Source: Leptolyngbyaceae cyanobacterium
GTDB lineage: Bacteria; Cyanobacteriota; Cyanobacteriia; Cyanobacteriales; Aerosakkonemataceae
NCBI GenBank assembly: GCA_036703985.1
Contig: DATNQN010000057.1
Span: 372,001-436,000 of the forward strand
Direction: 5' to 3'
Length of the DNA stretch: 64,000 nt
Part shown: piece after piece, positions 44,052-64,000 of the stretch
Numbering within the stretch: the first letter of the stretch is position 1
Layout: each line of letters starts with the position of its first letter
Made by a program: the position numbers and the translations under genes
The notes under the pieces: generated by a model
Databases searched by the model: none
Seen by the model: only the letters and a program-made list of their open reading frames with translations
What the model was told of the DNA's origin: nothing

Positions 44052-44852
44052 TTAATTATTACACCGATCGTTACCAGAAATTGGCCGACCTAAAAATTCG
44101 TGATAGCACTGAAGTGAAGTGCGAGCATCACTACGGACAACGCTGGTATACATAAGCGCTAAAGGACGACGTTGCTGTTGCCCCAGAGCAGTACTGAATT
44201 TCAAAGAAGCAGATCTTTGAGGAGGGTTTTCTACCAAGCCCCAGTTATCACGTATAGAAACCGTATAAACTCTTACACCTATGTTAAAACCAACTAGTCT
44301 TCCAGTATTATTTCTAACTCCTGGAGTACGGTAAGTTTGTACGATAAAATCATCAGAACCATCGCCATTAACATCAACCAATAAACCTTGGGTCGCTGAT
44401 GATGGAAAACTTTGAGTATTAGGAATGTCTTCTGGTCTTACCGTTGAACTAGGCGCTGCCTGTTGCTTAACATTATTGTCACTTACACCACCTTGAGGAG
44501 GTAAATCTCGGTCTTCATAAGATCCTCGCTCTACAGTTCTTCTTACCCGGTCAACTTCTCCTTGTGCTAGTTGTATTGCTTGTTCTGCTCGTCGGTTTTG
44601 AATGCGAGTAGCCACAGCGATAAAAATTGGTGGTGTCAAAAAAGTGATTACCATCGTCACAACTACAATGGCGATCAAACATTCTAATAAGCTCATTCCT
44701 TGCTCTGAGCTATTACCCTTTGAGACCTTGGCTAATATTCCTTTGGGAGTTAATGTAGTTTGCTTAGTTTGGCAATGTTGAGTTGGAATGGGGGTAGATG
44801 GTGGAGATTTCTCCAAAACTGGAGATGCAAATCGAACGTTTCTTAGTAGCAT
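44052..44852 (-). CDS. hpsB: Pseudopilin, HpsB-like
   Basis: This 266-aa protein has an unusually long leader (about 52 residues) before the cleavage site QGMSLLECLIAIVVV (Gly52, Glu57 at +5). The helix is followed by NRRAEQAIQLAQGEVDRVRR, a Pro/Gly-rich loop and a small globular domain with two C-terminal cysteines. It lies 27 bases downstream of the HpsA-like gene with a purine-rich ribosome site. Assignment is by order and prepilin type. Confidence 0.8.
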   Translation of the reverse strand: MLLRNVRFASPVLEKSPPSTPIPTQHCQTKQTTLTPKGILAKVSKGNSSEQGMSLLECLIAIVVVTMVITFLTPPIFIAVATRIQNRRAEQAIQLAQGEVDRVRRTVERGSYEDRDLPPQGGVSDNNVKQQAAPSSTVRPEDIPNTQSFPSSATQGLLVDVNGDGSDDFIVQTYRTPGVRNNTGRLVGFNIGVRVYTVSIRDNWGLVENPPQRSASLKFSTALGQQQRRPLALMYTSVVRSDARTSLQCYHEFLGRPISGNDRCNN

Positions 44853-47800: not shown

Positions 47801-49550
47801 GTTCCAACCGGGGAGAAACTACGACTCGCAAGCCATTAGCCCAAGCGCGGCGTTCCCAGTAACCATCTAAACCTAAATTTCTAAATTCTGGGTCGGATAC
47901 TGGGTCAGTAGCATTGTTGATCAGTAATCGCTCTGAAGCTGGGATGGGATCGCCGTTAACCGGGCCGCCTGGATTTGCTGCGGCATCGCGAAGCCAATAA
48001 CGGGTGTTTACTCGATCGTATTTTGGTTTCGGGCCGTAGCGATTGTCTGCTCGGTAAGTATCGTCAACGTAGGGAGGGTCTTGCTGGTTGTTGCGGACGC
48101 GCCCTCTTTGTACGAAAACCGTGTTTTCCCAACCACCTTCTCTAGAAGTTTGGTTAGTGGGGTCTGACCATAAGGAGCGGGATACATCGCGAGTAAATAA
48201 AGCTACCGGATCTAGTGCTAACTGAGCCGCGTTTTGGCCTCCAGCTGAGTCGTTACTTTCCTGTAAAGTACCTCTTGTGGGGTTGGTATCTTCTGGTGTA
48301 TCGTTACCTCCTTGCTGTTGCAAGTCAAAGCGGACGCTACCAGCTGCGTTATCAAATACTCTTCTTGCGACAAATTGACCTTGAAATCCTCCCTGACGGG
48401 GTTCTTGAAGGACGGAAATTTCCGAAGAATCTTTACCGTAGAAACAAGACCTCCTAGCGCTGATCAGATAAGCTCTAAAGTTGCCCGTGAAGCCGCCGAC
48501 AAACATATTGCCAGCACTATACATGGCTCCGTTCCAGTTAAACGGGGCACCTGGATAAATGTCCATATCGTAGCGGAACCAAGCACCCCATCGGTTGGCT
48601 CTATCTAGCTGTCTATCTTGTTGAAATTCAAGAGTAGCAACGGTTCGGCTGGTACCTTGGTTATTGGAAATTACAATGGCATCGACTTGGAAAGTTTTTC
48701 GCAGTACACCGCTACCTACTGGATACCAAACGCTTTCATCTACTGGTAAGATTTGGCCAGCAGCTGGGGCTGCATTTGGTTGGGTAATACTAGCACAAAC
48801 AGTATCGTTCAGATTGGTTGTATTGATCGGGCCGTTCCGCGTTACTAAGGCTAATGCTTTATTACGATCGGTGTCCGGCCCAGTATTATCTACCGGATCT
48901 CCGTTGGCGTCTCTACCACCTACACCATCTATACTGACCCTACGATCGTCGCTTCTACTTCTCAGATAGATTCCGTATACAACTGTTTCTGGTCTGTTAT
49001 CGTTATCTACATCAAGTTGATAAGACCAAGCCGGATCTAGCCTCCCATCATTATTTATATCTAAAGGCCCTGTTTCGTCTGGAAAAGTATATGGATTTGG
49101 ATTAAGTGGAATTGTTAAGCCTGGATATAGGTTCTGATCGTTCACCAACAAGCTCAATAGCATTTGGTCGGAAGCTGCGCCTGTCGGACGACGAGAGTCC
49201 TGCTGAAATAAATACTCCAGTTTAGCTTTTCCTCTCTCAATTGCTGGTGTCGCAGCATTATAAATAACTTGTTCTTCTCTAGCACCGATTACTTGATTAG
49301 TTCGGCTGGTAGTGCGAAAGAGAATTCCCCCAATTACTAAAGTCACTACTAACAACATCAAAACTACTGTTGGCAGCACGAAACCCGATTTAGCGTGGGC
49401 ATAACGCCTGCTACGGCGACCTTTATGAAAGAGATTATGCACCAACCAACGGCTCAGCTGTCTGCCAGCACTTCTACTAAGTTGCCAGACTTGTTTGAAT
49501 ACGCTGTAGATGAATTTTTGAATAGCCCTGGTTTGCTTGCGTGTTAACAT
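44880..49550 (-). CDS. hpsA: Hormogonium polysaccharide protein HpsA-like, 1556 aa
   Basis: A very large protein with a basic N-terminus of about 55 residues, then a prepilin-like segment KSGFVLPTVVLMLLVVTLVIGG (Gly56/Phe57 junction, helix to about 79). It lacks the usual Glu at +5 (Pro-Thr there). IYNAATPAIERGKAKLEYLF follows. The remaining roughly 1450 residues are Asn/Pro/Gly/Asp-rich, beta-type, probably extracytoplasmic, with few cysteines. In Nostoc, hpsA heads the operon needed for motility-associated polysaccharide. It leads this five-gene run, and 880 bases of spacer precede it. Confidence 0.85.
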   Translation of the reverse strand: MLTRKQTRAIQKFIYSVFKQVWQLSRSAGRQLSRWLVHNLFHKGRRSRRYAHAKSGFVLPTVVLMLLVVTLVIGGILFRTTSRTNQVIGAREEQVIYNAATPAIERGKAKLEYLFQQDSRRPTGAASDQMLLSLLVNDQNLYPGLTIPLNPNPYTFPDETGPLDINNDGRLDPAWSYQLDVDNDNRPETVVYGIYLRSRSDDRRVSIDGVGGRDANGDPVDNTGPDTDRNKALALVTRNGPINTTNLNDTVCASITQPNAAPAAGQILPVDESVWYPVGSGVLRKTFQVDAIVISNNQGTSRTVATLEFQQDRQLDRANRWGAWFRYDMDIYPGAPFNWNGAMYSAGNMFVGGFTGNFRAYLISARRSCFYGKDSSEISVLQEPRQGGFQGQFVARRVFDNAAGSVRFDLQQQGGNDTPEDTNPTRGTLQESNDSAGGQNAAQLALDPVALFTRDVSRSLWSDPTNQTSREGGWENTVFVQRGRVRNNQQDPPYVDDTYRADNRYGPKPKYDRVNTRYWLRDAAANPGGPVNGDPIPASERLLINNATDPVSDPEFRNLGLDGYWERRAWANGLRVVVSPRLELGNPFGWVNSSLNADADRDDPGEIDPLYPANPDPQSPAPILHEQQQRRTLFDNLAAVQATVVYHHDSGLGNPAGDFPIACLATTVHPGSRQAEDLSRNFQRSGQRYWYPNQPQALVSDFFYGIGTNGWEYTVPQAGDFGGGPLRTALQNLANFAGDYQDINNSGAFPPTQGGRVFPNPYLAMWGNFSNLKRALTLPANNSIADNSYLHTAGCVVGMLANNISYFQQAPNYDPSWWTAAQANFTTLANELKTAVGTTSPWPTGYRPTPDDYILRLPNADPPNPTPINDLAKLARFVHMREQITRDRRFGFADTPTAGGFQYNVQYLGAAVTPAPPPPATATFNRTLTYAGVTYSSVAGTGVTTTINVGCDLTANNYFGLDAPSTWGTTAEKLDKEERLIILATSLCSTKPKFPSLYYIFPVAAVDNHDRVGAPAGAALPAGEPYISPPAPSNNPYPNDRFVAVEPTAITTVRPKGENWAGGNNNANGNWYLPNTDAANPAGETDFRIVTRNGGTRFVSVIDSAFFDSREKMTVRALNLDLNLLRRTTIANGNTWLPRSGIVYAFREDSAREDAIIRPANGTNPNNNTNPNQPRDPQLEVNRISRKPVDFYPDPDRRPFGFRLRNGQDLRRWPNGGIDNTNPRGVTFVSDNPIYIQGDFNFHSTDGTAGNQIEEFNERLDPNNWNGTFYNRTNLDPRFARSGNGNDTWRPAEILSDAITILSNNFAEGYVDLGIANDTTIVPGGRYSFRAMNRPTNSNPGNGWLLENGTVRTATNNTLPIKLSHNGNPFFCNTAPTNGYCPPANVVEYTQGNGYLAFNNDYRGDINQAIDTRVNAIIVSGITPTRQGQQNGGFHNFPRYIENWSNVNSFINGSFVQLNFSTYSTAPFSHVAWEPGTNPNGNVIQYYQPPNRLWGYDVGLQYAPAGPLSQRFVTSGVPRSEFYRDLKVDDPYICRLRLALNRINNQLDPASQRECN

Positions 49551-50869: not shown

Positions 50870-52861
50870 TTAAGCAATAGCCCGTTCGGTTAAGCGCGTC
50901 AATACTTGATTAGAACGTTCTACAAAGGCTTTCATACCATCGGCGTTAAAACCTTTTTGGGCCATTAGTGCCAAATCGTAGACGTGATGGCAAATCATGT
51001 TCGCTAACTCGCTACTGGGAGATTGACCTTCACCTTGAACGATGCTGCCTTGACTCAAACTCGCTAGATTTTGGATCAGGGGGTGAGCAGTGTTCACGAC
51101 TAGAGTGTGTTCTTCTGGGAATTGCACGCTTTGCTGTTGCAATAAAGCGCTCATTTCTTGCAAGCGGCGCAAGAATTCTGGCAGTAACACCATTGCGGGA
51201 GGCGTTCCTTGGGGGTCATCTGATTTGAGCGCTTCTGTCCGAATGGTTACTTTTGGCTTGTTGAGTGCTTTCTCGAAGATTTCTTTAATCGTTTCGCTGC
51301 GAGTTTTGTTGGTTTTGGGGTCAACGATTTCGTTAGCTTTATCTTGTTCGAGCAAGCTTTGGTCTAGTTCTGCGTCTACGCGAGAGAACTTTACCTCTGG
51401 ATGCTCCCGCTCTAGGAATGAGATAAAGTGGGAGTCGATGAAGGAGTCCATAAATAGGACTTCCAAACCTTGTTTTTTGTGTAGTTCTACGTAAGTAGCT
51501 TGAGCATTTTCGTCGTTACAGTAAAAAACTCGGTTTTCATGCCGTGGTTTGTTACGTTCTAAGTATTCTTGCAGGGTAGTGTATGTTTTACCTTCCCCAT
51601 CTTTGTTAACTGCTGGGGGAGTAACATCTTGCCAAGCATCTCCTTCGGAAGTTTGCACTTGTACGCTGGTGGCTGCACTTTCTGAGGTTTGCTCTTGGGG
51701 TTGGTAGCTGGTGCGATAGATAAGTATATCTTCGACTTGCTTTTTGAACTTGTCGTCGTTCATACAGCCGAATTTAACGAAGGTGCCGATATCTTTCCAG
51801 CAGGTGATATATTCGGCGCGGCTGTCGCGATAGAGTTCTTTTAAGCGATCGCCTACTTTCTTGGCTACGAAGTCGGCTATTTTGCGAACGGTGCGATCCA
51901 TTTGCAGCGCACTGCGAGAAACGTTGAGGGGAATATCCGGACTATCGATGACTCCCCGCATTGCCAGCAAGAATTTGGGCATGATTTCTTCGCAGTTGTC
52001 GCTGACGAAGACTTGGTTGCAGAATAATTTGATCTGTCCTTTGGTTACGTCTACTTCCGGTTTGAGTTTGGGGAAGAAGAGAATGCCGTTGATTTGGAAG
52101 GGATAGTCGGTGTTGAGGTGTACCCACAGCAGGGGGTCTTCTTGGAAAGGATAGAGATAGCGGTAAAATTCTAGGTAATCTTCTTTGTTGAGATCTCTAG
52201 GAGATTGTCTCCATACTGCCTTTTGCTTGTTGATTACTTCGCCGTCAAGTTCGATCGCTACTGGCATAAAATCGCAGTAGGTTTTCACCAATTGCCGAAT
52301 CCGGGTAGGTTCGAGGTATTCTGCTTCTTCTTCTTGCAGGGTGAGGGTGACGGTGGTTCCGCGATCGCTACGAGATGAATCTTCTAAAGTGAAGGTGGGG
52401 GAACCGTCGCAAGACCAATGTACTGCTGTGGCTCCTTCTTGGTAAGAAAGAGTGTCGATCTCGACTTTTTGAGCCACCATGAAGGAGGAGTAAAAGCCCA
52501 AACCGAAGTGCCCAATAATTGCTTCGCTGTTGCCTTGATACTTTTGGATAAATTCTTCGGCACTAGAGAAGGCGACTTGGTTGATGTATTTCTTGACTTC
52601 TTCAGCTGTCATGCCGATGCCATTATCGCTGACAGAAAGAGTTTTTTTATCTTTGTCAATAGCAATTTGAATTTTTGGTTCGCCGATCTCTCCCTTGAGT
52701 TCGCCGGAGTGACTAACCATTTTCAGCTTTTGGATGGCATCCACGGCGTTGGAGATCAATTCCCGCAGGAAAACTTCGTGTCCGGAGTAAAGGGACTTCT
52801 TGATGATCGGGAAAATATTCTCGGTATGAATAGTAATCGTGCCTTGTTCCAGCATGGTCAT
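50870..52861 (-). CDS. htpG: Molecular chaperone HtpG (Hsp90)
   Basis: This 663-aa ATP-dependent cytosolic chaperone has N-terminal ATPase motifs EVFLRELISNAVDAIQKL, LSVSDNGIGMTAEEV and GHFGLGFYSSFMVAQKVEI. The middle domain has the LFCNQVFVSDNCEEIMPKFL and PDIPLNVSRSALQMD segments. The C-terminal dimerisation domain lacks the eukaryotic MEEVD tail. Two ATGs (52861 and 52855) are equally possible starts. An 18-bp perfect palindrome lies about 43 bases upstream, and a palindromic hairpin follows the gene. No full CIRCE element was found. Confidence 0.95.
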   Translation of the reverse strand: MTMLEQGTITIHTENIFPIIKKSLYSGHEVFLRELISNAVDAIQKLKMVSHSGELKGEIGEPKIQIAIDKDKKTLSVSDNGIGMTAEEVKKYINQVAFSSAEEFIQKYQGNSEAIIGHFGLGFYSSFMVAQKVEIDTLSYQEGATAVHWSCDGSPTFTLEDSSRSDRGTTVTLTLQEEEAEYLEPTRIRQLVKTYCDFMPVAIELDGEVINKQKAVWRQSPRDLNKEDYLEFYRYLYPFQEDPLLWVHLNTDYPFQINGILFFPKLKPEVDVTKGQIKLFCNQVFVSDNCEEIMPKFLLAMRGVIDSPDIPLNVSRSALQMDRTVRKIADFVAKKVGDRLKELYRDSRAEYITCWKDIGTFVKFGCMNDDKFKKQVEDILIYRTSYQPQEQTSESAATSVQVQTSEGDAWQDVTPPAVNKDGEGKTYTTLQEYLERNKPRHENRVFYCNDENAQATYVELHKKQGLEVLFMDSFIDSHFISFLEREHPEVKFSRVDAELDQSLLEQDKANEIVDPKTNKTRSETIKEIFEKALNKPKVTIRTEALKSDDPQGTPPAMVLLPEFLRRLQEMSALLQQQSVQFPEEHTLVVNTAHPLIQNLASLSQGSIVQGEGQSPSSELANMICHHVYDLALMAQKGFNADGMKAFVERSNQVLTRLTERAIA

Positions 52862-52903
52862 AGGTTAGCGCAAGTTGTATATACTATCTCCAAGATAGAT
52901 TGT

Positions 52904-52921
52904 GCGCTTTAGCTAAAGCGC
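52904..52921. promoter_or_regulatory. 18-bp perfect palindrome upstream of htpG
   Basis: GCGCTTTAGCTAAAGCGC reads the same on both strands and lies 43-60 bases before the htpG start. A small hairpin CTATC-TCCAA-GATAG sits between it and the gene. It may be an operator for a dimeric repressor or part of the untranslated leader; the binding factor is unknown. Confidence 0.45.
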
Positions 52922-53021
52922 TCGGCAAGGCATAAATTTTTATTTGCCAAAGGGATTACCCCCAGTACAGATTCGGATTTCCCTACTTTATAAAATTGGT
53001 GGATTAACAGCAAACACGGCT

Positions 53022-53627
53022 TTATTGTTTTTTTTCAACTGCAAAAAACCAGTGATAGGGGTGGAGAGGGTCTTGATAGTCTCTTTTGAGATTCAAGCCT
53101 AATTTTTTAATGGTGTCTATAAAACGTTTTTTGGGATAGCCTTTCATTCCTAGCTCCCAACAATGATTGGCACATATTGGTTTGGTTTTCCAAAAATGGG
53201 GAATTTGAATAAATAAATGCCTTGGTAAAATTGTCCGAGAATTTGTCAATCTCAAGCAAAAATACTCGCTAGAATATGGCAGAGAGATTACGACATATTT
53301 TTTGGTGGCCTCGGCTAGTTTTTGCAGGGCTTTTTCGGCGTCTTCGTAAGGTATGTGTTCTAAAACCTGAAAACAGACGATCGCATCAAATTTGTCTTTA
53401 GGTAATTCAAAATCGCTGTTTAAATCTAAAATTATATCTGGCTTTAATTCTGGATTTACATCAGCAGTAGTTACTAAATAACCATTTTTCTTCATCAGAT
53501 CGGAGAAAATTTGATTAAATATTCCTATTTCTAGAATAGTTGTTATTTGATTGCCCAAACTCTTAATTATTCTAACTTGGTTGTAGTAGCTGATCATTCT
53601 TTCTTTAGATAAATATTCGTAGCTCAT
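53022..53627 (-). CDS. Class I SAM-dependent methyltransferase
   Basis: This 201-aa Rossmann-type enzyme has motif I ILEIGIFNQIFSDLM (atypical: the usual second and third Gly are missing), then VTTADVNPELKPDIILDL and motif IV DAIVCFQVLEHIPYEDAEKALQKL. The C-terminus contains KKRFIDTIKKLGLNLKRDYQ. It probably methylates a sugar or other small acceptor, given the adjoining polysaccharide genes, but that is inference. It diverges from the sulfotransferase across 110 bases. Confidence 0.78.
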   Translation of the reverse strand: MSYEYLSKERMISYYNQVRIIKSLGNQITTILEIGIFNQIFSDLMKKNGYLVTTADVNPELKPDIILDLNSDFELPKDKFDAIVCFQVLEHIPYEDAEKALQKLAEATKKYVVISLPYSSEYFCLRLTNSRTILPRHLFIQIPHFWKTKPICANHCWELGMKGYPKKRFIDTIKKLGLNLKRDYQDPLHPYHWFFAVEKKQ

Positions 53628-53737
53628 GATTACTATTTGGTTGCCATTATTAGATTTTAAGGTTATATTATAATTTATTGGTTCGTTTAATAATCTAATT
53701 CTTTCTTTACATTTTGTTAAATTAACACGGGTGTTTT

Positions 53738-54649
53738 ATGACAATGCCAAATTTTTTAGTAATTGGTGCTGGTAAAGCTGGTAGTACCTCGATCGACGAG
53801 TATTTGAAGCAACATCCGCAAATTTATATGAGTCCCGTCAAAGAACCGAACTTTTTTGCATTGGAAGGAGAAAAGGTAGATTTTCGAGGCCCAAAAGCGG
53901 AAAATTTGATTAATTCTTGGTCTGTTACTGATATTGAAAGTTACCGCGCTTTGTTTAAAGATGTTGGGGAGCAGAAAGCGATCGGAGAAGTATCCCCCTT
54001 GTATCTGTACAGTCCGAAAGCGCCCGATCGGATCAAGCACTACATCCCGGATACCAAAATAATTGCCATTCTCAGACATCCTGCCGATCGCGCTTATTCA
54101 GCTTATTTGTGGTTATTCGGTCAAGAAAGGGAAAAGATCGCCGATTTTGCTAAAGCACTGGCAGCAGAGGAAAGTCGTATCCAAAGTAATTGGGAGTGGA
54201 TTTGGCATTACAAAAATATGGGTTTTTATTATCAGCAGTTACAGCGATATTACGATAGATTCGATCGAAATAAAATTAAAGTTTATTTATTTGAAGACTT
54301 GAAAAAGAATGATGTTGGATTAACTAAGGATCTCTATCAATTTTTAGGTGTTGAAGAAGATTACGTACCAGATACGTCGATCAAATATGCCTACTCAGTT
54401 ATTCCACCTAAAAATAAAGCTTTGCAAGATTTTCTCACTCAGGAGAATTCGCTTAAGCAATTTTTAAGGGGTATTTTACCAGAGAAGCTCAGGAAGCCTT
54501 GGGCAGCTAAAGCTTATAGAAAAAATATGGCTCAATCCTTAAAATTATCCAAGGAAATGCGACAGCAGTTAATTGAAGATTATCGAGAAGATATTTTGAG
54601 ATTGCAAGATTTAATTCAAAGAGACCTTTCATCATGGCTGATTGCTTAG
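53738..54649 (+). CDS. PAPS-dependent sulfotransferase
   Basis: This 303-aa cytoplasmic enzyme has the 5'-phosphosulfate-binding loop FLVIGAGKAGSTSIDEYL (about 6-23), the 3'-phosphate motif ILRHPADRAYSAYLW (Arg113, Ser121) and IGEVSPLYLY, with KVYLFEDLKKN further on. This is the heparan-sulfate/NodH-like sulfotransferase type. It is the first plus-strand gene of the block followed 36 bases later by five glycosyltransferases, so it likely adds sulfate to the same glycan. The substrate is not known. Confidence 0.88.
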   Translation: MTMPNFLVIGAGKAGSTSIDEYLKQHPQIYMSPVKEPNFFALEGEKVDFRGPKAENLINSWSVTDIESYRALFKDVGEQKAIGEVSPLYLYSPKAPDRIKHYIPDTKIIAILRHPADRAYSAYLWLFGQEREKIADFAKALAAEESRIQSNWEWIWHYKNMGFYYQQLQRYYDRFDRNKIKVYLFEDLKKNDVGLTKDLYQFLGVEEDYVPDTSIKYAYSVIPPKNKALQDFLTQENSLKQFLRGILPEKLRKPWAAKAYRKNMAQSLKLSKEMRQQLIEDYREDILRLQDLIQRDLSSWLIA

Positions 54650-54685
54650 TCAAAATAAACAATAACAATTATGTAAATAGCTGAT

Positions 54686-55684
54686 ATGCCACTAATTTCA
54701 GTGATAATTCCGGCTTACAATAATGAAAAAACGATTCGAGAGACGATCGAATCAGTTTTAAATCAAACTTTTTCGGATTTTGAGTTAATTATAATTAACG
54801 ATGGCGCGACTGACTCAACTTTAGAAATTGTCTCCAGCATACAAGATCCTAGAATCAAGGTTTTTTCTTATCCAAACGCTGGTGTTTCTGTCAGCCGCAA
54901 TCGAGGTTTTCAGCTTGCTAGTGGTAAATTTATTTCTTTTCTGGATGCCGATGATTTGTGGACACCAAATAAGTTAGAATTGCAATTAGAAGCTTTGCAA
55001 TCAAATCCTGAAGCCGCAGTTGCTTACAGTTGGCTCGATCGAATTGACGAATCAGGTCAATTTTTAACTAAGGGTAATTATAGAAATTTTACTGGTAATG
55101 TTTACGAACACTTGGTAGAGCAAAATTTTTTAGAGACGGCTTCTAATCCTTTGATTTGCGCTGAAGCTTTAAAGGCAGTAGGTGATTTTAATTCTGAACT
55201 TACTCCTGCTGAAGATTGGGATATGTTTTTGCGATTAGCTGAACATTATCATTTTGTAGTTGTTCCCCGCCCGCAAATTTTATATCGAGTGTCTGCTAAT
55301 GCTCAATCCACTAATATGCTAAAAATGGAAGCTGTTGGCAGACAAATACGTAAAAAAATAGCCGATCGCGCACCCGAACATTTACAGCAGATAAATAGAA
55401 TTGCGATCAAAAGAAGATACAAGTATTACACTTACAAAATAATGGAAGGATTACCAGACAGAGAGAAAGGACTAATAGGGATAAGGTTTTTATGGGAGGC
55501 AATAAAATATGATGCTTCGTTATTAAAAACGCGAGTAATCTGGAAAGTATTGTTAAAAATCGCAATTACCGTACTAACGCCACGTCAAGTAGCTGTATTT
55601 TTACAAAAGAAATACCCAAAATTATTTAATATTGAAACATTAATGATTCATGCCAATAAGGATATGTCCTTGGAAAGTGAATAA
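54686..55684 (+). CDS. GT2 glycosyltransferase, tandem paralogue 1 of 5
   Basis: This 332-aa GT-A fold protein begins LISVIIPAYNNEKTIRETIE. Next comes IINDGATDSTLEIV (Ala instead of the Ser usual at this position), then SVSRNRGFQLASG, metal-binding DADDLW, AAVAYSWLDRIDESG and PAEDWDMFLRLAEHYHF with the ED catalytic pair. The C-terminal ~90 residues are basic and helical (RFLWEAIKYDASLLKTRVIWKVLLK, in pieces), shared by all five copies. It is 36 bases after the sulfotransferase. Confidence 0.87.
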   Translation: MPLISVIIPAYNNEKTIRETIESVLNQTFSDFELIIINDGATDSTLEIVSSIQDPRIKVFSYPNAGVSVSRNRGFQLASGKFISFLDADDLWTPNKLELQLEALQSNPEAAVAYSWLDRIDESGQFLTKGNYRNFTGNVYEHLVEQNFLETASNPLICAEALKAVGDFNSELTPAEDWDMFLRLAEHYHFVVVPRPQILYRVSANAQSTNMLKMEAVGRQIRKKIADRAPEHLQQINRIAIKRRYKYYTYKIMEGLPDREKGLIGIRFLWEAIKYDASLLKTRVIWKVLLKIAITVLTPRQVAVFLQKKYPKLFNIETLMIHANKDMSLESE

Positions 55685-55704
55685 ATATATATAGCAAGTT
55701 AAAT

Positions 55705-56691
55705 ATGGCAGTTATTTCAGTAATTATTCCTGCATATAATAGCGAACAAACAATTCGAGAGACGATCGAATCAGTTTTACAGCAAACGTTTTCGGATTTT
55801 GAATTAATCGCGATCGATGATGGTTCAACTGATAAAACATTAGAGATTGCTTCGAGTTTCAAAGATACTCGAATAAAAGTTTTTTCTTATCCCAATGCTG
55901 GCGGTGCTGTCAGTCGCAATCGCGGTTTCTCCCATTCTTCGGGAGAATTTATCGCTTTTTTAGATGCGGATGATTTATGGACGCCGGACAAGCTAGAATT
56001 GCAATTAAAAGCTTTGCAAGATAATCCAGAAGCGGCGGTAGCTTACAGTTGGTTAGATGCGATCGATGAAGCGGGAAAATTTCTAAGAGAAGGTAATCAT
56101 AGAACGGAAAATGGCGATATTTTTGCCAAACTTTTTTTAATTCCATTTGTAGAAAGCGGTTCCAATCCCTTGATTCGCAGACAAGCTTTTATCGATGTTG
56201 GTGGTTTTGATGAATCACTTACAGCCAGTCAAGATTATGATTTGTATTTGCGATTGGCAGCGCGGTATAATTTTGTAGCGGTGCCATCAGCGCAAGTTTT
56301 ATATCGAATTTCAGCTAATTCTATGTCTGCTAACGTTCGCAGACAAGAAGCAACCAGCTTGTTCGTGAGAGAACGTGCTTTTAAAGAATCTCCTCAACCT
56401 TTACCTTCAGAGTTAAAGCAATATAGTATCGCCAACTTTTATAAAGATATTATGTTTCGATTGCTGAACATGAATCCGCAAAGAAAAAGGGGTTTGGAAG
56501 CAGCGCGATTTCTCTGGTATGCTGTGAAATACGATCCGGCACTATTGCGAAGGAGAATTCTTTGGAAGGTGGTGTTGAGAATTTTCGCGATCGTACTTTT
56601 ACCACCCCAACAAGCTGAGTTATTGCTCAACAGAATGAACAAGTTAGCAGATATTAGCACTTTATATATATTTATGCGACAAGAACCTTAA
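55705..56691 (+). CDS. GT2 glycosyltransferase, tandem paralogue 2 of 5
   Basis: This 328-aa protein has the same architecture as its neighbours: VISVIIPAYNSEQTIRETIE, IAIDDGSTDKTLEI, AVSRNRGFSHSSG, LDADDLW and AAVAYSWLDAIDEAG. It differs at the catalytic-base region: TASQDYDLYLRLAARYNF has Gln where the other copies have Glu. This could lower or change activity. It starts 20 bases after copy 1 with an ATG and is part of a single dense transcription block. Confidence 0.85.
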   Translation: MAVISVIIPAYNSEQTIRETIESVLQQTFSDFELIAIDDGSTDKTLEIASSFKDTRIKVFSYPNAGGAVSRNRGFSHSSGEFIAFLDADDLWTPDKLELQLKALQDNPEAAVAYSWLDAIDEAGKFLREGNHRTENGDIFAKLFLIPFVESGSNPLIRRQAFIDVGGFDESLTASQDYDLYLRLAARYNFVAVPSAQVLYRISANSMSANVRRQEATSLFVRERAFKESPQPLPSELKQYSIANFYKDIMFRLLNMNPQRKRGLEAARFLWYAVKYDPALLRRRILWKVVLRIFAIVLLPPQQAELLLNRMNKLADISTLYIFMRQEP

Positions 56692-56694
56692 AAT

Positions 56695-57693
56695 ATGACA
56701 ATGATTTCTGTAGTTATACCTGTTTATAATGGTGAAAAAACCCTGAAAGAAACGATCGAATCGGTTTTAACCCAAACTTTTCAAGATTTTGAGTTAATTA
56801 TAATTAACGATGGCTCTACTGACAACAGTTTAGAAATTATTTCTGGTATTAAAGATGAAAGAATAAAGGTATTTTCTTACCCAAATGCTGGCTTATCTGC
56901 TAGCCGCAATCGAGGTATCGATCTCGCGAACGGGGAATATATTTCTTTTATCGATGCGGATGATTTATGGACACTTGATAAATTAGAAGCTCAATTAAAA
57001 ACACTGCAAGAAAATCCTGAAGCGGCAGTAGCTTATAGTTGGACTGACTGCATAGATGAATCGGGTAAATTTTTAGGGAAAGGTAGTTATTTTAGTTTTA
57101 GCGGTGATGTGCGTGCTAATCTTTTATTAACTAATTTTATTGATAGCGGATCGAATGTTTTAATTCGCATGGAAGCCTTAAAAAAGGTTGGTAATTTCGA
57201 TGAATCGCGTCAATCTTGCGAAGATTGGGATATGTGGTTGCGGTTAGCAATTAACTATAGTTTCGCGGCAGTATCCAAGCCGCAAATTTTATATCGAATG
57301 TCTTCTAGTTCGATGTCGGTTAATTTCTTGCGGATGGAAAGAGAAAGCTTAGATGTAATAGAAAAAGCTTGCGATCGCGATCCGGCATATTTTTCACCAT
57401 TCAAGCAGTTAAGCAAAGGAAACATTTATAAGTACCTGCTGTTTCGCTCGCTTACGTTAGCGACGAAACGAGAGGATGGTTTAATGGCGGCTAGATTTTC
57501 ATGGCAATCTTTGAAATACGATCGTTCTTTGCTAAAAACAAAAGTTATTTGGAAAATTTTATTTAGAATCGTTACCTTACTTTTATTGCCGAAAGAAATG
57601 GCTGTTACAACGATCGCTAAATATAAAAGGCTATATAATATAGATTCTCTACTAATATATATGAGAAAAGGAGTACCTTTTGAAGGAAAATAA
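56695..57693 (+). CDS. GT2 glycosyltransferase, tandem paralogue 3 of 5
   Basis: This 332-aa protein contains MISVVIPVYNGEKTLKETIE, IINDGSTDNSLEI, SASRNRGIDLANG, IDADDLW, AAVAYSWTDCIDESG and SCEDWDMWLRLAINYSF. The ED pair and DxD are intact. Only three bases separate its ATG from the stop of copy 2, implying translational coupling. Donor and acceptor are unknown. Confidence 0.87.
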   Translation: MTMISVVIPVYNGEKTLKETIESVLTQTFQDFELIIINDGSTDNSLEIISGIKDERIKVFSYPNAGLSASRNRGIDLANGEYISFIDADDLWTLDKLEAQLKTLQENPEAAVAYSWTDCIDESGKFLGKGSYFSFSGDVRANLLLTNFIDSGSNVLIRMEALKKVGNFDESRQSCEDWDMWLRLAINYSFAAVSKPQILYRMSSSSMSVNFLRMERESLDVIEKACDRDPAYFSPFKQLSKGNIYKYLLFRSLTLATKREDGLMAARFSWQSLKYDRSLLKTKVIWKILFRIVTLLLLPKEMAVTTIAKYKRLYNIDSLLIYMRKGVPFEGK

Positions 57694-57718
57694 CTAATTT
57701 TTCAAAGAGGTGAATAAT

Positions 57719-58705
57719 ATGCCAACTATCTCTGTAATTATTCCTGTCTATAATGGTGAGAAAACGATTCGAGAAACTATCGAATCGGTTTTGAATCAAA
57801 CTTTTACGGATTTTGAATTAATCGTAATTGATGATGGTTCCCAGGATAAAACTGTAGAGATTGTTTCCAGCATAAGAGATGAGCGTTTAAAGATATTTTC
57901 TTACCCTAATTCAGGGGTTTCTATCAGTCGCAATCGTGGAATTTCTCATGTTTCTGGTGAATACATATCCTTTATAGATGCTGACGATCTCTGGACAGAA
58001 GATAAATTAGAATTGCAATTAAAAGCGTTAAAAGAAAATTCTCAAGCTGCTGTTGCTTATAGTTGGACTAAATGTATTGATGAATCAGGTAATTTTTCAC
58101 GCCGAGGTAGCCATATTAGCGTTACTGGCGATGTTTATGCCAAACTGTTATTAATTGATTTTATCGAAAATGGTTCCAATCCTTTAATTCGCAAACAAGC
58201 TTTAACAGAAGTGGGAGAGTTTGATGCGTCAGTTACTCCTTCTGAAGACAGAGATATGTGGCTACGTTTAGCTGCTAAATATCATTTTGTTGCTGTTCCT
58301 TCCCCACAAATTTTATATCGCCAATCAGATAATTCGGCTTCAGCTAATATTGCCAAGCAAAAGGTGGCTAGCTTGAAAGTAATTGAAAAAGCTTTCGAGC
58401 GAACACCTGCATCTTTACAGTATTTAAAAAGGTATTCTGTTGGTAATATTTACAAGGGTCTTACTTTCAAAGCTTTGGAAGGGAACCCACATCCAAAACA
58501 GGGATTAATAGCAGCTAGATTGCTTTGGATTTCTGTTAAAAACGATCCTAATCTACTGAAGACACGAGTAATTTGGAAAGCCTTGTTAAAAATTGCCGTA
58601 ATGATTATTTTACCGCCTCAACTATCTCAAGGATTAATAAGTAAATTTAAAGCAATGTTTAATACTACCACTATTCTTGGTTACTTACAATTAGAATTAT
58701 TTTAG
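57719..58705 (+). CDS. GT2 glycosyltransferase, tandem paralogue 4 of 5
   Basis: This 328-aa protein contains TISVIIPVYNGEKTIRETIE, IVIDDGSQDKTVEI, SISRNRGISHVSG, IDADDLW, AAVAYSWTKCIDESG and TPSEDRDMWLRLAAKYHF; the Trp after ED is replaced by Arg. The ATG at 57719 with AAAGAGG before it is preferred over a GTG three codons upstream. The shared basic C-terminus (ARLLWISVKNDPNLLKTRVIWKALL, in pieces) is present. Confidence 0.87.
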   Translation: MPTISVIIPVYNGEKTIRETIESVLNQTFTDFELIVIDDGSQDKTVEIVSSIRDERLKIFSYPNSGVSISRNRGISHVSGEYISFIDADDLWTEDKLELQLKALKENSQAAVAYSWTKCIDESGNFSRRGSHISVTGDVYAKLLLIDFIENGSNPLIRKQALTEVGEFDASVTPSEDRDMWLRLAAKYHFVAVPSPQILYRQSDNSASANIAKQKVASLKVIEKAFERTPASLQYLKRYSVGNIYKGLTFKALEGNPHPKQGLIAARLLWISVKNDPNLLKTRVIWKALLKIAVMIILPPQLSQGLISKFKAMFNTTTILGYLQLELF

Positions 58706-58713
58706 GATTTAAG

Positions 58714-59667
58714 ATGCCAAATATATCAGTAATTATTCCAGTTTATAATAGCGAAAAGACAATTCGAGAAACAATCGAGTCGGTATTAAATCAAACTTTT
58801 ACAGATTTCGAGCTAATCATTATTAACGATGGTTCTCAAGATTCTAGCTTAGAGATTATTTCCAGTATCCAAGACACCCGTTTGAAAGTATTTTCCTATC
58901 CAAATGCGGGGGTATCAGCTAGTAGAAATCGCGGTATAGATCGAGCAAGTGGCGAATATATTGCTTTTTTGGATTCGGATGATTTGTGGACAGCTGATAA
59001 GTTGGAATCTCAGTTACAGGCTTTGCAAGCTAATCCTCATGCAGCCGTTGCTTATAGTTGGACTGAATATATCGATCGATCTGGTAAATTTGTCTGTCCC
59101 GGTAATCACGTCACTGCTAGTGGGAATGTTTACGAGCAGCTTTTACTGCAAAATTTCTTAGAAAATGGCTCTACACCATTAATTCGGAAGGAAGCTTTGA
59201 TAAAAGTGGGGAATTTTGATGAGTCATTATTTGGCCCTGAAGATTGGGATATATACTTACGTTTGGCTGCAAATTATCAGTTTGTAGCCGTACCGAAAGT
59301 GCAAGTTTTATATCGAATCTCAGCTAATTCAGTTTCTTCTAATGTTTTCCGGCAGGCATCAGAATGCTTAAAGGTGATTGAGAGAGCTTTTAACCAGGCT
59401 CCAGCATCTTTACAACATCTGAAAAAAATGAGTATTTCTAATCTTTATCAATATTTAGTTTTTAAGACGATCGAAGGTTATCCCAATCGAGAGCAGGGTG
59501 TAGCGGCGGCGAAATGTCTTTGGCTTGCGATCGTTAATGACCCGGCTCTGCTGAAAAAGCGATCGCGCCTAATCTCGATCGTATTTATTAAGATATTAGC
59601 TATTATTTTATTACCTCAATCTCCAAAATTTTTCGATAAAATTAAGGCTGTTTTTAGAAAATCATAA
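58714..59667 (+). CDS. GT2 glycosyltransferase, tandem paralogue 5 of 5
   Basis: This 317-aa protein contains NISVIIPVYNSEKTIRETIE, IINDGSQDSSLEI, SASRNRGIDRASG, metal-binding site DSDDLW (Ser in place of Ala), AAVAYSWTEYIDRSG and FGPEDWDIYLRLAANYQF. It is slightly shorter at the C-terminus than the other copies. It starts eight bases after copy 4 and ends the plus-strand block, converging with the HpsE-like pair 19 bases away. Confidence 0.87.
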   Translation: MPNISVIIPVYNSEKTIRETIESVLNQTFTDFELIIINDGSQDSSLEIISSIQDTRLKVFSYPNAGVSASRNRGIDRASGEYIAFLDSDDLWTADKLESQLQALQANPHAAVAYSWTEYIDRSGKFVCPGNHVTASGNVYEQLLLQNFLENGSTPLIRKEALIKVGNFDESLFGPEDWDIYLRLAANYQFVAVPKVQVLYRISANSVSSNVFRQASECLKVIERAFNQAPASLQHLKKMSISNLYQYLVFKTIEGYPNREQGVAAAKCLWLAIVNDPALLKKRSRLISIVFIKILAIILLPQSPKFFDKIKAVFRKS

Positions 59668-59686
59668 ACAGTTAACTTCTGGATAA

Positions 59687-60628
59687 CTAAAATTTTAGGA
59701 TTAACCAATAAAAAGGGCTAATTAAGCTTCCGATAAAAAAAGCCATTTCGCACTCAGCAACTAAGTCATTTTTAAATTTTCCTCGATATTTAATGAAGTG
59801 CATTACAACGCGACGCAAGTTACCTAAAAAAGTTCTAACAGCAATTACTGGTTTTTGTTGAGGTGCAGCATTAATCATGCGGAGTTGACAAGTAGCTAAA
59901 CCACAATTACGAGATATACAAAGCAAATAACTTCTTTCTAAACGTCTGCTGGGAATTTGATGATATGTCTGCATTGCCGGATTGTACCAAATTTCCCAAC
60001 CTGCTTTATGGATGTGAAGTGATATTTCGTAGTCGTCTCCTTGGGACAAAGATTTACCTATTCTTCCTGTTAAAATAGGCGTGTCGGGTATGCTTTCGCA
60101 CCATGCTTGTTTGCGGACTACTAAAGCTGCACCGGGAGGAAGTCTGAGGTTTTGCGGTTCGTATAAAATTGGTTCTGCACCGCATCTCTTAATTGCCAAA
60201 AAAGATTCTATTCTTTGGAAGTTTTCCGGAGGTTGCACTTCAAAATCACCGTGAATTTGACCGCCGTAAACACCTGCTTTTGGATGTTCTTGCCCGAATG
60301 AATAAGCTGTTGCAACCCAGTTATTATCGGGTAGATTGTCATCATCTAAAAAAGCAACTAATTCTCCGTTTGCTTCTGCGATCGCGCGTTTTCTTGCCCA
60401 GACTAATCCCTGTTTGGGTTCAAAAACGTATTTAAGAGGGTAAGGGTATTTCCAGGTATTTTGATACTCTTTAACTACTTTAGATGTACTATCATTACTA
60501 TTATTATCAATTACAATGATTTCCCAGTTAAAGGATTCTGTGGCTGTTTGCGATCGCAATTTTTCTAAAACTTTCGGTAATCTGTTTTCCCCATTATAAG
60601 TAGGTATCGCAACTGTTATATTAATCAT
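59687..60628 (-). CDS. HpsE-like family 2 glycosyltransferase (second of pair)
   Basis: This 313-aa protein contains INITVAIPTYNGENRLPKVLEKL, EIIVIDNNSNDSTSKVV, YVFEPKQGLVWARKRAIAEANGELVAFLDDDNLPD (in pieces; the DDD metal site), YGGQIHG and LSQGDDYEISLHIHKAGWE as the catalytic region. This start and the AFLDDDNLP motif match the HpsE type of hormogonium polysaccharide glycosyltransferase, from memory. A C-terminal hydrophobic stretch (MAFFIGSLISPFYWLIL) may bind the membrane. Its ATG overlaps the stop of the upstream gene by eight bases. Confidence 0.82.
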   Translation of the reverse strand: MINITVAIPTYNGENRLPKVLEKLRSQTATESFNWEIIVIDNNSNDSTSKVVKEYQNTWKYPYPLKYVFEPKQGLVWARKRAIAEANGELVAFLDDDNLPDNNWVATAYSFGQEHPKAGVYGGQIHGDFEVQPPENFQRIESFLAIKRCGAEPILYEPQNLRLPPGAALVVRKQAWCESIPDTPILTGRIGKSLSQGDDYEISLHIHKAGWEIWYNPAMQTYHQIPSRRLERSYLLCISRNCGLATCQLRMINAAPQQKPVIAVRTFLGNLRRVVMHFIKYRGKFKNDLVAECEMAFFIGSLISPFYWLILKF

Positions 60629-61583
60629 TAGAATTACTCTCTAAATATATTTTTCGCCAGATAAAAAATGGGCTGACTAAACTACTTAAATATAACTGCA
60701 TTTCACAAGCCGCCACTACATCGGTTTTGACTTTAGTGCGATATTTCAATAAGTGAAAAATAATTTTTTTAGTATCGTTTATCATATAAGCGATATTTAC
60801 CAGAGGTTTTAGCCAAGGTTGAATACCGATCGTTCTAGTTACATAACGACTCAAACCAATCCCGCGAGCTAATGAAATGAGATAGCTTTTTTCTAGCCTC
60901 CATTTGGAAATTTTATGATCGATTTCCATCTCAGGATTATACCAAATTTCCCAATCCGAGTTCTGAATATATGATAATACTTCTAAATCTTCACTTGTTA
61001 GCATTTTGCCATGTGCTCTACCTGTCAAAATTAGTTGCTTAGGAACATTTTCTAGCCATGCTTGTTTGCGTATAACTAGACCTGCTGATGGAGGTAATAG
61101 TTTACTAGAAGGGTTGTATAAAAGCGGATTTTCACCTCTTTCTATAATTGCTAATAGTGAGGCAATTCTCTTAAAATTTTTTGGCGGCTCAATTTCGTAC
61201 ATTGGATGAATTTGACTACCGTAAGCACCAGCTTTTGGATATTCTTGGCTAAATAAATAAGCTTTTGATACCCAATCAAGTGCAGGGAGATTATCGTCAT
61301 CTAAAAAACCAATCAGTGAACTATTCGCCTCTTCAATTGCTTTTTGTCGTGCAAATCCTGCACCTTGTTTTTGCTCGTAATAGTATCTTATTGGGTACGG
61401 ACATGACCAATTTTTTTGGTAATCTTCTACTATCTTTTTGGTACGATCGCTGCTATTGTTATCAACAACAATGATTTCCCAAGAAATGCTTTCAGTATTA
61501 ATTTGCGCTCTTAGCCGTTCCAGAACTTCTGGCAAACGATTTTCCCCATTGTAAGTAGGAATGGCAACCGTGAAGTCTAGCAT
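60621..61583 (-). CDS. HpsE-like family 2 glycosyltransferase (first of pair)
   Basis: This 320-aa protein starts at the ATG at 61583 (LDFTVAIPTYNGENRLPEVLERL); a longer open frame upstream adds 21 unrelated residues. EIIVVDNNSSDRTKKIV, GFARQKAIEEANSSLIGFLDDDNLPALDWV, YGSQIHP and MLTSEDLEVLSYIQNSDWE follow. It is a clear paralogue of the following gene and overlaps it by eight bases. It lies 75 bases downstream of clpB, separated from it by a hairpin. Confidence 0.82.
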   Translation of the reverse strand: MLDFTVAIPTYNGENRLPEVLERLRAQINTESISWEIIVVDNNSSDRTKKIVEDYQKNWSCPYPIRYYYEQKQGAGFARQKAIEEANSSLIGFLDDDNLPALDWVSKAYLFSQEYPKAGAYGSQIHPMYEIEPPKNFKRIASLLAIIERGENPLLYNPSSKLLPPSAGLVIRKQAWLENVPKQLILTGRAHGKMLTSEDLEVLSYIQNSDWEIWYNPEMEIDHKISKWRLEKSYLISLARGIGLSRYVTRTIGIQPWLKPLVNIAYMINDTKKIIFHLLKYRTKVKTDVVAACEMQLYLSSLVSPFFIWRKIYLESNSND

Positions 61584-61605
61584 AGGGAATTTTTTGTTTG
61601 GTGAA

Positions 61606-61653
61606 TTGGAAAATGGGAAAAAATATCTGGCTTCCCAATTTCCCATTTCCCAA
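61606..61653 (-). terminator. Hairpin after clpB
   Basis: TTGGAAAATGGGAA (61606..61619) pairs with TTCCCATTTCCCAA (61640..61653): a 14-bp stem with one mismatch and a 20-base loop. It begins just beyond the clpB stop on the minus strand, where an A/T-rich run follows. Confidence 0.65.
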
Positions 61654-61658
61654 TATGG

Positions 61659-64000
61659 TTAACTTTCTACTACTTGAACTGCGGCTGGCGAGATCGTAAT
61701 AGTTTGTTTTTTGTTGAACGTAAGCTTATTATTGGCACAATCAACGGAAATCGTATCACCTGGAACGAAAGAATTTTCCAAAATCAGCGTCGCGATCGGA
61801 TTTTCCAGTTCTCGTTGAATGGCCCGTTTCAAAGGACGAGCGCCGTATACCGGATCGTAACCTGCTTCTGCCAGATGATTTTGGGCAGCAGGGGACAATT
61901 CCAAGGCAATTTTTTGATCGGCGAGTAACTTTTGAATCCGCTGCATTTGAATACCCACAATTTGGCGTAATTCGCTCAAATTCAGAGTATGGAAGAGAAT
62001 TGTATCATCAACCCGGTTGAGAAATTCCGGACGGAAATGTTTTCTTAAAGCTTCCGTTACCTGTTTCCGCATTTTCTCGTATTGGGAGTCGTCGCGGGCG
62101 AATTCTAAAATACGATCGCTTCCGATATTACTCGTCATTACGATCACCGTATTGCGGAAATCTACCGTTCTACCTTGAGAATCGGTGATTCTGCCATCAT
62201 CCAACACTTGCAGCAAAATGTTGAATACGTCCGGGTGTGCCTTTTCCACTTCATCCAGCAACACCACCGAATAAGGACGCCGACGAATCGATTCGGAAAG
62301 TTGCCCTCCTTCTTCATACCCCACATAACCGGGAGGCGCACCCACCAAACGGGAGACGGCGTGTTTCTCCATGTACTCGGACATATCAATTCGCACTAAA
62401 GCGTCTTCCGAGTCAAACAAAAATTGAGCCAAAGCACGGGCTAACTCGGTTTTTCCGACCCCAGTTGGCCCCATTAAGAGGAAAGAACCGATCGGGCGTC
62501 CGGGGTCTTTCATTCCCGCCCTCGCGCGACGAATTGCTGCTGCAACTGCGGAAACAGCTTCTTCTTGCCCGATCACCCTCTTATGCAGTTGCGCTTCCAA
62601 TTGCAATAACTTTTGCCGTTCCGATTCCAGCAAACGGTTAACTGGGATTCCCGTCCATTTTCCGACAATTTCGGCAATATCTGCTTCCGTAACTTGTTCC
62701 CGTAACAGGGTAGAACCTTGAGATTGCACTTTCAGGAGTTCTGCTTCTTTCGCTTCCCGATCGCGCTGCACTCCTTCCAGTTTCCCATACTTCAACTGCG
62801 CCGCTTTATTCAAATCATAAGCTCTTTCGGCTTGTTCGATTTGAACTCGCAATTGTTCTTCTTCTTCCTTCAAAGCGTTGATTGCTTGCAGGACTTGCTT
62901 TTCACCTTGCCATTGGGAAGCGAGTTTATCTTGTTCTGCTTTTAATTCATTAATCTCATCTTCAATTTTGCCCAGACGTTCTCGCGACGCTTTATTTTCT
63001 TCCCCTTCTAAGGAAAGTTTTTCCATTTCCAACTGCATCAAGCGTCTGTCAATTGCCTCTAACTCTTCTGGTTTTGAGGTAATTTCCATTTTCAATTTAG
63101 CAGCTGCTTCGTCTACTAAGTCGATCGCTTTATCTGGCAAAAAGCGATCGGTAATGTAACGTTGAGAAAGAGTAGCTGCCGCCACTAACGCCGAATCGGT
63201 AATTTTAACACCGTGGTGAACTTCGTACCTTTCCTTCAATCCCCGCAGAATGGAAATCGTATCTTCTACTGTGGGTTGATCTACGTAAACTTGTTGGAAA
63301 CGACGTTCCAGGGCAGCATCTTTTTCGATATGCTTGCGGTACTCATCTAAAGTAGTTGCCCCGATGCAGCGCAACTCTCCTCTAGCTAACATGGGTTTGA
63401 GTAGATTTCCCGCATCCATCGCGCCTTGGGCGTTACCACCGGCACCGACAACGGTATGAAGTTCATCGATAAATAGGACTATTTGCCCTTCCGAGTTGGT
63501 AACTTCTTTCAATACCGCCCGCAATCTGTCTTCAAATTCGCCTCGATATTTCGCACCCGCCACCAAACTACCCATATCCAGGGAAATCAGTCGGCGGTTT
63601 TTCAGGGATTCCGGTACGTCCCCGTTGACGATTCGCTGGGCGAGTGCTTCTGCGATCGCAGTTTTTCCCACCCCAGGTTCCCCAATTAACACGGGATTAT
63701 TCTTCGTTCGCCGCGATAACACCTGAATTACCCGCCTAATCTCATCATCTCGCCCGATTACCGGGTCTAGTTTACCAGCTTTAGCTTGTTCCGTGAGATC
63801 GCGACCGAATTTTTCTAAGGCGTCATAACGATTTTCCGGGGTTTGATCGGTAACTTTTTGGCTACCCCGCATCGTTTTAATGACAGCTTCTAACTTTTTA
63901 AGATCGACATCAAAAACTTTAAGTAAACGGCGTCCGATTCTTTCATCTTCCGCAAAACCGATCCATAAATGTTCTACTGAAATAAAGCCATCTTGCCAAG
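61659..64000 (-). CDS. clpB: ATP-dependent chaperone ClpB, 5' end outside the window
   Basis: A disaggregase working with DnaK. About 780 residues are visible and the reading frame runs off the window edge. The visible start is the end of the N-terminal Clp_N domain ([22 protein letters not shown]), then linker [27 protein letters not shown]-1 has Walker [10 protein letters not shown] and Walker [16 protein letters not shown] coiled-coil M domain follows, and AAA-2 has [14 protein letters not shown] and [16 protein letters not shown]. The M domain separates it from ClpC. The promoter is not visible. Confidence 0.95.

Follow-up and report, generated by a model that had tools for sequence, protein, structure and literature searches.

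Why does a cyanobacterium keep five related glycosyltransferase (GT) genes in a row behind a sulfotransferase gene, and what might this set of enzymes make? The question arises from a 64,000-nucleotide stretch of a Leptolyngbyaceae cyanobacterium (GenBank assembly GCA_036703985.1, contig DATNQN010000057.1, positions 372,001 to 436,000; here called the window), in which the sulfotransferase gene and five genes of GT family 2 (GT2), copies A to E, lie between the genes for the chaperones ClpB and HtpG. We conclude that the five genes are probably an expanded set of HpsG-type enzymes, made up of old copies, in a locus for hormogonium polysaccharide (HPS; the hps genes), the motility slime, and that the clpB-htpG interval around them is probably a slime-glycan module that varies between species.

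RESULTS

The gene array and its hps context

The array consists of the following six genes.

53738 to 54649, forward strand: sulfotransferase, 303 amino acids (PF13469, 2e-14; PF00685, 2e-12; PDB 3rnl, E 1e-69)
54686 to 55684, forward strand: GT2 copy A, HpsG-type, 332 amino acids (PF10111, PF00535)
55705 to 56691, forward strand: GT2 copy B, HpsG-type, 328 amino acids (PF10111, PF00535)
56695 to 57693, forward strand: GT2 copy C, HpsG-type, 332 amino acids (PF10111, PF00535)
57710 to 58705, forward strand: GT2 copy D, HpsG-type, 331 amino acids from a GTG start (an alternative ATG at 57719 gives 328 amino acids)
58714 to 59667, forward strand: GT2 copy E, HpsG-type, 317 amino acids, the last slot (PF10111, PF00535)

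A check of the open reading frames confirmed the layout given in the preliminary description, a sulfotransferase gene followed by five GT2 genes on the forward strand, with gaps of 36, 20, 3, 25 (16 with the GTG start of copy D) and 8 bases. Scores to PF10111 and PF00535 are far beyond the cut-offs in copies A to E, and five proteins in succession with PF10111 matches no weaker than 1e-43 are not a product of chance. The DNA units of the five copies are also in register, with start-to-start distances of 1019, 990, 1024 and 995. When aligned, the proteins proved to be paralogous GT2 enzymes, as had been described, copies B to E being 54 to 56% identical to copy A. Residues D87, D89, D90 and D177, which we take to be the DxD motif and the catalytic aspartate of the family, are invariant across the copies, and their retention, together with the Pfam matches, places all five in GT2 with a GT-A fold. 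The acidic motifs reported as shared are kept, except that the second of them, ED in the other copies, reads QD in copy B, where the glutamine is fixed in the B slot of all five genomes compared. The sulfotransferase is assigned to its class by its Pfam matches and by its solved relative, PDB 3rnl. None of eight predicted terminator-like sites falls in a gap between array genes, and promoter-like sites are not enriched (23 observed versus 23.8 in shuffles). All 25 records matched by copy E, which was searched alone for a plasmid origin at E ≤ 1e-40, did so at less than 60% identity.

The surrounding genes lie on the reverse strand.

41517 to 42053, reverse strand: pilin-like protein (TIGR02532, over cut-off)
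42292 to 42897, reverse strand: pilin-like protein (TIGR02532, over cut-off)
42946 to 44040, reverse strand: HpsC-like pseudopilin (best match NF038304, 146 bits; cut-off, 200)
44052 to 44852, reverse strand: HpsB-like pseudopilin (sole match NF038303, 70 bits; cut-off, 150)
44880 to 49550, reverse strand: HpsA (NF038301, 617 bits; cut-off, 400)
50870 to 52861, reverse strand: HtpG (Hsp90), the interval anchor on the copy A side, named from its own sequence
53022 to 53627, reverse strand: methyltransferase inside the interval, upstream of the array (PF13489, 3e-9)
59687 to 60628, reverse strand: first HpsE-family glycosyltransferase, convergent to the array (NF038302, 484 bits; cut-off, 300)
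60621 to 61646, reverse strand: second HpsE-family glycosyltransferase (NF038302, 514 bits; cut-off, 300)
61659 to 63998, reverse strand: ClpB, the anchor at the opposite end, running off the window edge, named from its own sequence

With HpsA and two HpsE proteins above their NCBIfam cut-offs, the array is, as judged from sequence, inside an hps locus, a setting that the preliminary description had not recognized. Its more general proposal, that these GT2 enzymes belong to a locus for a polysaccharide that is plausibly sulfated, is borne out by the Pfam matches and the hps context. HPS is made by a Wzx/Wzy-type system and is required for hormogonium motility (PMC12288463). Lectin data point to fucose and possibly galactose in HPS, and the DnaK1/DnaJ3 chaperone system has been tied to its production (PMC9239167); HtpG and ClpB are not mentioned in the main text of that paper, and we met no published link between either of them and slime.

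The clpB-htpG interval differs between congeneric species

In the window, the interval between the two chaperone genes runs from 52862 to 61658 and has a guanine-plus-cytosine (GC) content of 0.363, versus 0.461 and 0.466 in the anchors. Among 66 loci examined, 20 contain both anchors, and in every one of these the interval likewise has a lower GC content than either anchor. The anchors themselves are well conserved, window HtpG being 80 to 84% identical to ten relatives (73% to that of genome G012) and window ClpB being 80 to 90% identical to 11 relatives.

Three comparison genomes that belong to one genus (G003, G007 and G009) illustrate how sharply the interval departs from its flanks. Along their contigs, blastn identity is 89 to 98% up to and through ClpB and about 92 to 93% over HtpG; between the two genes it is 68 to 74%, or there is no match. 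Identity drops after ClpB in both comparisons that involve G009 and one gene later, after the first HpsE gene, in G003-G007, in line with a first HpsE that is 94% identical in that pair versus 68 to 69% in the other two. Over HpsA and beyond, the G003-G007 match is patchy at 68 to 73%, and the G009 contig stops after HtpG. For G003-G007, the resulting values are 99% for ClpB, 97% for HtpG, 51% for HpsA and 61% for the array.

A similar pattern was found across the host family, in which seven congeneric pairs were compared (the array of G008 being taken to include one copy beyond htpG). ClpB is 97 to 99% and HtpG is 86 to 98% identical in these pairs, and the best-match identity of the array is 58 to 64% in five of the seven, in which ClpB is at least 98% identical. 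Conserved flanks around divergent, low-GC content, as in a capsule locus, were therefore found between species in five of seven pairs. Gene content varies as well. At E ≤ 1e-50, a sulfotransferase occurs at the array locus in the window genome and G007 only, among 10 host-family genomes, and the two proteins are 81% identical, the G007 gene also lying beside an array. The window methyltransferase has a relative only in G012 among the stretches of 11 other genomes.

The nearest relatives of the window genes change from gene to gene. Copy B is nearest to G007 (82%). For copy E and the first HpsE, the closest counterparts are in G009 (86 and 81%, respectively); these two are 66 to 68% identical to their counterparts in G002 and G006, and window HtpG is about equidistant from all. 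Beyond the interval, HpsA (relatives at L146 to L153) is 47 to 62% identical in all five congeneric pairs that have both proteins, and ClpB in those pairs is 97 to 99% identical. HpsA distance also correlates with array distance when HtpG is allowed for (partial Mantel r of 0.44 to 0.46, P of 0.018 to 0.025, nine genomes, P values unadjusted for several tests), which is suggestive only of a link between the divergence of HpsA and that of the array.

Could very fast evolution and gene loss alone, with no exchange, have made the interval differ between congeners? An HpsA protein that never exceeds 62% identity in the five pairs is what a fast-evolving surface protein could show, and two of the seven pairs retain their arrays, at 80 and 96%. 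However, gene content and copy number differ, as the distribution of the sulfotransferase illustrates, and a sister GT of the array family located elsewhere in G003, G007 and G009, which served as a single-gene control, is 84 to 91% identical. In addition, copy 9499 of G003 groups with Microseira copies rather than with those of its congeners (Shimodaira-Hasegawa-like approximate likelihood ratio test [SH-aLRT] support of 99) in a quick tree of 106 rows. That tree excluded the fused L069 and L072 proteins, members scoring below 385 bits, and the duplicate contigs L039, L041, L042, L044 and L045. We therefore consider divergence without exchange unlikely.

Position of the array family in related loci

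The preferred reading, an HpsG-type set in a species-variable interval, also draws on loci that carry the same GT family in other cyanobacteria. Four compact loci (L058, L064, L084 and L133) have the order hpsA-hpsB-hpsC-pilin-hpsE-hpsE-GT of the array family-pilin, and L063 has the same order plus one pilin; the HpsB and HpsC labels in all five are weak matches to the window proteins. Each of the five has a single GT copy, and neither clpB nor htpG was found within the stretch examined. Since this order matches that listed for hpsA to hpsH of Nostoc punctiforme (PMC10581220), the array takes the position of hpsG. The name HpsG is thus assigned to a GT2 enzyme that follows HpsE in the hpsA-to-hpsH order, by position and published naming, there being no HpsG model among the NCBIfam matches and N. 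punctiforme HpsG being known here by position only.

Among 50 loci bearing a GT of the array family at 385 bits or more, which include several per genome in part and are not 50 independent cases, HpsE is present in 35, HtpG or ClpB in 24, and at least one of HpsE, HpsA, HtpG and ClpB in 36, and a sulfotransferase at 300 bits or more occurs in 6. ClpB, the HpsE genes, the array, HtpG and HpsA thus recur together in relatives. ClpB and HtpG are both present in 20 of the 66 loci, and 19 of these 20 hold one to five GT-family copies between them; the records concerned include ones titled Nostoc, Calothrix, Rivularia, Symplocastrum and Moorena. Within the host family, all 10 genomes examined, from five genera, have the GT family, with one to five copies between the anchors.

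Alternatively, the array might be a cluster for a sheath or for exopolysaccharide in general, one that merely came to lie next to hps genes and has no part in making HPS. Fourteen of the 50 loci with neither an hps nor a chaperone gene in the stretch examined would fit such a cluster, as would the fusion of some relatives. Against it stand the HpsE genes found in the same stretch in 35 of the 50 loci, the hpsG position of the GT family in the compact loci and the abolition of N. punctiforme motility upon disruption of hpsEFG (PMC10581220). In our view, it is quite unlikely that the array belongs to such a cluster.

The fused relatives of the array GTs are proteins of 953 to 1,099 amino acids with two to four GT2 domains, some of them partial, and were found at four loci.

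L050, 9012 to 12311: fused GT2 protein
L061, 6033 to 8993: fused GT2 protein
L069, 25 to 2886: fused GT2 protein
L072, 6927 to 10034: fused GT2 protein

In the quick tree, the domains of the L050 protein pair with the corresponding ones of the L061 protein. Further single copies lie near the fused genes, as do weak sulfotransferase matches of 51 to 69 bits (L061, L069 and L072), and L050 has an ATP-binding cassette exporter-like protein of 605 amino acids, named from its own sequence. In Planktothrix rubescens (L055, 2411 to 6107 and 12430 to 16284), four partial HtpG-like open reading frames form two groups that flank HpsE and GT genes, and the arrangement looks as if htpG had been split and duplicated.

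The five copies are old

The history of the copies was examined in a main tree of 43 rows, of which 25 are array copies and the remaining 18 were selected by hand from the 106-row quick tree. Copies B to E each group with copies in other genomes. Copy B falls with the first-slot copies of G007, G006, G002 and G009 and with the G008 copy beyond htpG (support of 100/99). Copy C joins the second-slot copies of G009, G002 and G006 (100/100; 99/99 with G007), and copy D joins the third-slot copies of the same three genomes (100/100; 100/99 with Symplocastrum copies 3 and 4). The sister of copy E is the last copy of G009 (100/100). Around this pair, a wider clade (98/88) takes in a copy on contig C108 of the window's own genome and the last copies from Symplocastrum, G012, G002 and G006. 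No orthologue of copy A was found among the sequences compared; its end branch is long (0.66) and its best identity 57%. The third copy of G007, a genome in which slot letters were assigned by position, groups with neither slot D nor slot E.

The slot order B, C, D, E is common to G009, G002 and G006, three genomes from two other genera, and in the data compared it would fit descent and block transfer of the array equally well. An approximately unbiased (AU) test rejected a clade made up of the five window copies (log-likelihood difference of 657; P = 0.0006). AU tests on five further clades, chosen after inspection of the tree such that their P values are not strict, rejected four of them; the joining of copy A to B or to D was among those rejected. 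Synonymous divergence between the window copies (pS of 0.61 to 0.72) is near saturation, which suggests that the duplications behind the five copies are old; old local duplication would be compatible with these data.

The preliminary description had envisaged repeated local duplication with recombination among the copies that alters the glycan from strain to strain, and although a single-strand tandem of similarly long genes 54 to 56% identical to copy A could suggest recent duplication within the lineage, and Symplocastrum torsivum does carry a more recent duplicate (two copies that are 78% identical and share an exact run of 50 bases), this history is very improbable and, where recent, largely refuted by the same-slot relatives of B, C and D in other genera and of E in G009, by the AU rejection of a window-only clade, by pS and by exact runs of at most 30 bases. 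Copies B, C, D and E thus group with copies of other genomes, no orthologue of copy A having been found. The window likewise holds no clear trace of recombination among copies, the longest exact run being 30 bases and the best 40-codon stretch (A versus C) having a third-position identity of 0.75; a short, old event may have occurred. Variation between relatives, also proposed earlier, is upheld insofar as the interval differs between related species, the difference arising where copies, or the interval itself, were replaced and not by inter-copy recombination.

The pair at L040 (5931 to 6938 and 6954 to 7940; 78% identical, 50-base exact run) is the youngest duplicate pair of the six arrays compared.

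Predicted structure and slot residues

The predicted structure of copy D, from a 59-sequence alignment, has a mean predicted local distance difference test score of 95.4, and the nearest solved folds are the chondroitin polymerase K4CP, a Leptospira GT and the fucosyltransferase WrtF. Under a relaxed rule, residues fixed within a slot and differing between slots make up 10 of 96 in positions 1 to 120 and 57 of 135 beyond. Both this rule and the Fisher test treat linked positions as independent, and the rule assigns to slot E the last copies of G002 and G006, which are not sister to window E. The contrast is also affected by the general conservation of the N-terminal half of GT2. The pattern agrees weakly with a common way of handling nucleotides and with acceptors or sugars that differ from slot to slot.

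DISCUSSION

How the array might work can be sketched from the families involved. Each HpsG-type enzyme (GT-A fold, inverting by family) would most likely add a different sugar to the slime repeat unit, and the two adjoining HpsE enzymes would act together with the five copies on that unit; the array genes may be co-transcribed. If these activities hold, the putative sulfotransferase would add sulfate to the glycan product, and the product would be secreted as HPS. Copies, HpsE alleles and the sulfotransferase would be gained, lost or replaced between the conserved chaperone genes, and the interval may be exchanged between species, as capsule loci are, by homologous recombination in its flanks. 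With interval content changing in this way, related species probably make different slimes.

Several observations weigh against this account. The comparison is of one genome per species, and at least some of these are metagenome-assembled genomes. The array is kept in G001-G005 (96%) and in G002-G006 (80%; at the DNA level, 83% versus 90 to 91% for the anchors). The second HpsE of the window is 71% identical to that of G009 and 73 to 75% identical to those of G002 and G006, unlike copy E and the first HpsE. A clade of the B copies of G007 and G009 was the one that the AU tests did not reject (P = 0.0995), which leaves replacement unproven for the B slot. Given that a strict rule yields only three slot-diagnostic positions, slot specialization is not strongly marked. 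The 14 loci lacking HpsE, HpsA, HtpG and ClpB in the stretch examined imply that the GT family is not exclusive to hps, and the window HpsB and HpsC matches fall short of their NCBIfam cut-offs (70 of 150 and 146 of 200 bits).

More tentatively, it is quite possible that the clpB-htpG interval is a slime-type locus of gliding cyanobacteria. Such a low-GC module would comprise hpsG slots and HpsE alleles, with or without a sulfotransferase; recombination within the conserved chaperone genes would pass it from species to species, and HpsA, as a secretion partner, would co-vary. If so, filaments would differ in slime type in the way that capsulated bacteria differ in serotype. The putatively exchanged interval and its possible link to HpsA are the most notable part of this analysis, and should HpsA prove to vary together with the glycan genes, it could be the polymer-recognizing part. 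Little is known about the chemistry of the slime on which gliding cyanobacteria depend, and slots that can be matched across genera offer a route to assigning one sugar step per gene. A divergent interval between constant flanks also provides natural pairs of congeners for testing slime variation and its cause, be it phage, grazers, self-recognition or surface.

Comparison with known systems

Capsule and O-antigen loci have conserved flanking genes around a low-GC glycosyltransferase interval that differs between relatives. The clpB-htpG interval resembles them in its variable, low-GC GT block and conserved flanks, and differs from them in that it concerns a motility slime, is anchored by chaperone genes and is supported by evidence between species rather than strains. 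By sequence profile and fold, the nearest enzyme to the array GTs is the chondroitin polymerase K4CP (PDB 2z86/2z87), which shares their GT-A fold. K4CP is one protein with two such GT domains, whereas the array GTs are single-domain proteins 26 to 27% identical to it.

Nostoc punctiforme hpsA to hpsK (PMC10581220, PMC6495340, PMC4284469) shares with the window hpsA, pseudopilins (putative in the window), HpsE and a GT2 gene in the hpsG position. The closest precedent is the hps cluster of Phormidium sp. KS (Sato et al. 2014, PMC4284469), which has four hpsG genes in tandem, together with clpB, htpG, orf303 (a sulfotransferase) and orf297 (GT2). Tandem hpsG, both chaperone genes, a sulfotransferase and a further GT2 gene are thus combined in one hps cluster there as in the window, with four hpsG copies rather than five, and orf303, judged by its name, equals the window sulfotransferase in length (303 amino acids). 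We met neither a phylogeny of the slots nor interval exchange in the published account of that cluster, and the word "horizontal" is absent from its main text. The arrangement of tandem hpsG with clpB, htpG and a sulfotransferase is therefore already known, and the five-copy array of the window appears to be a further case of it.

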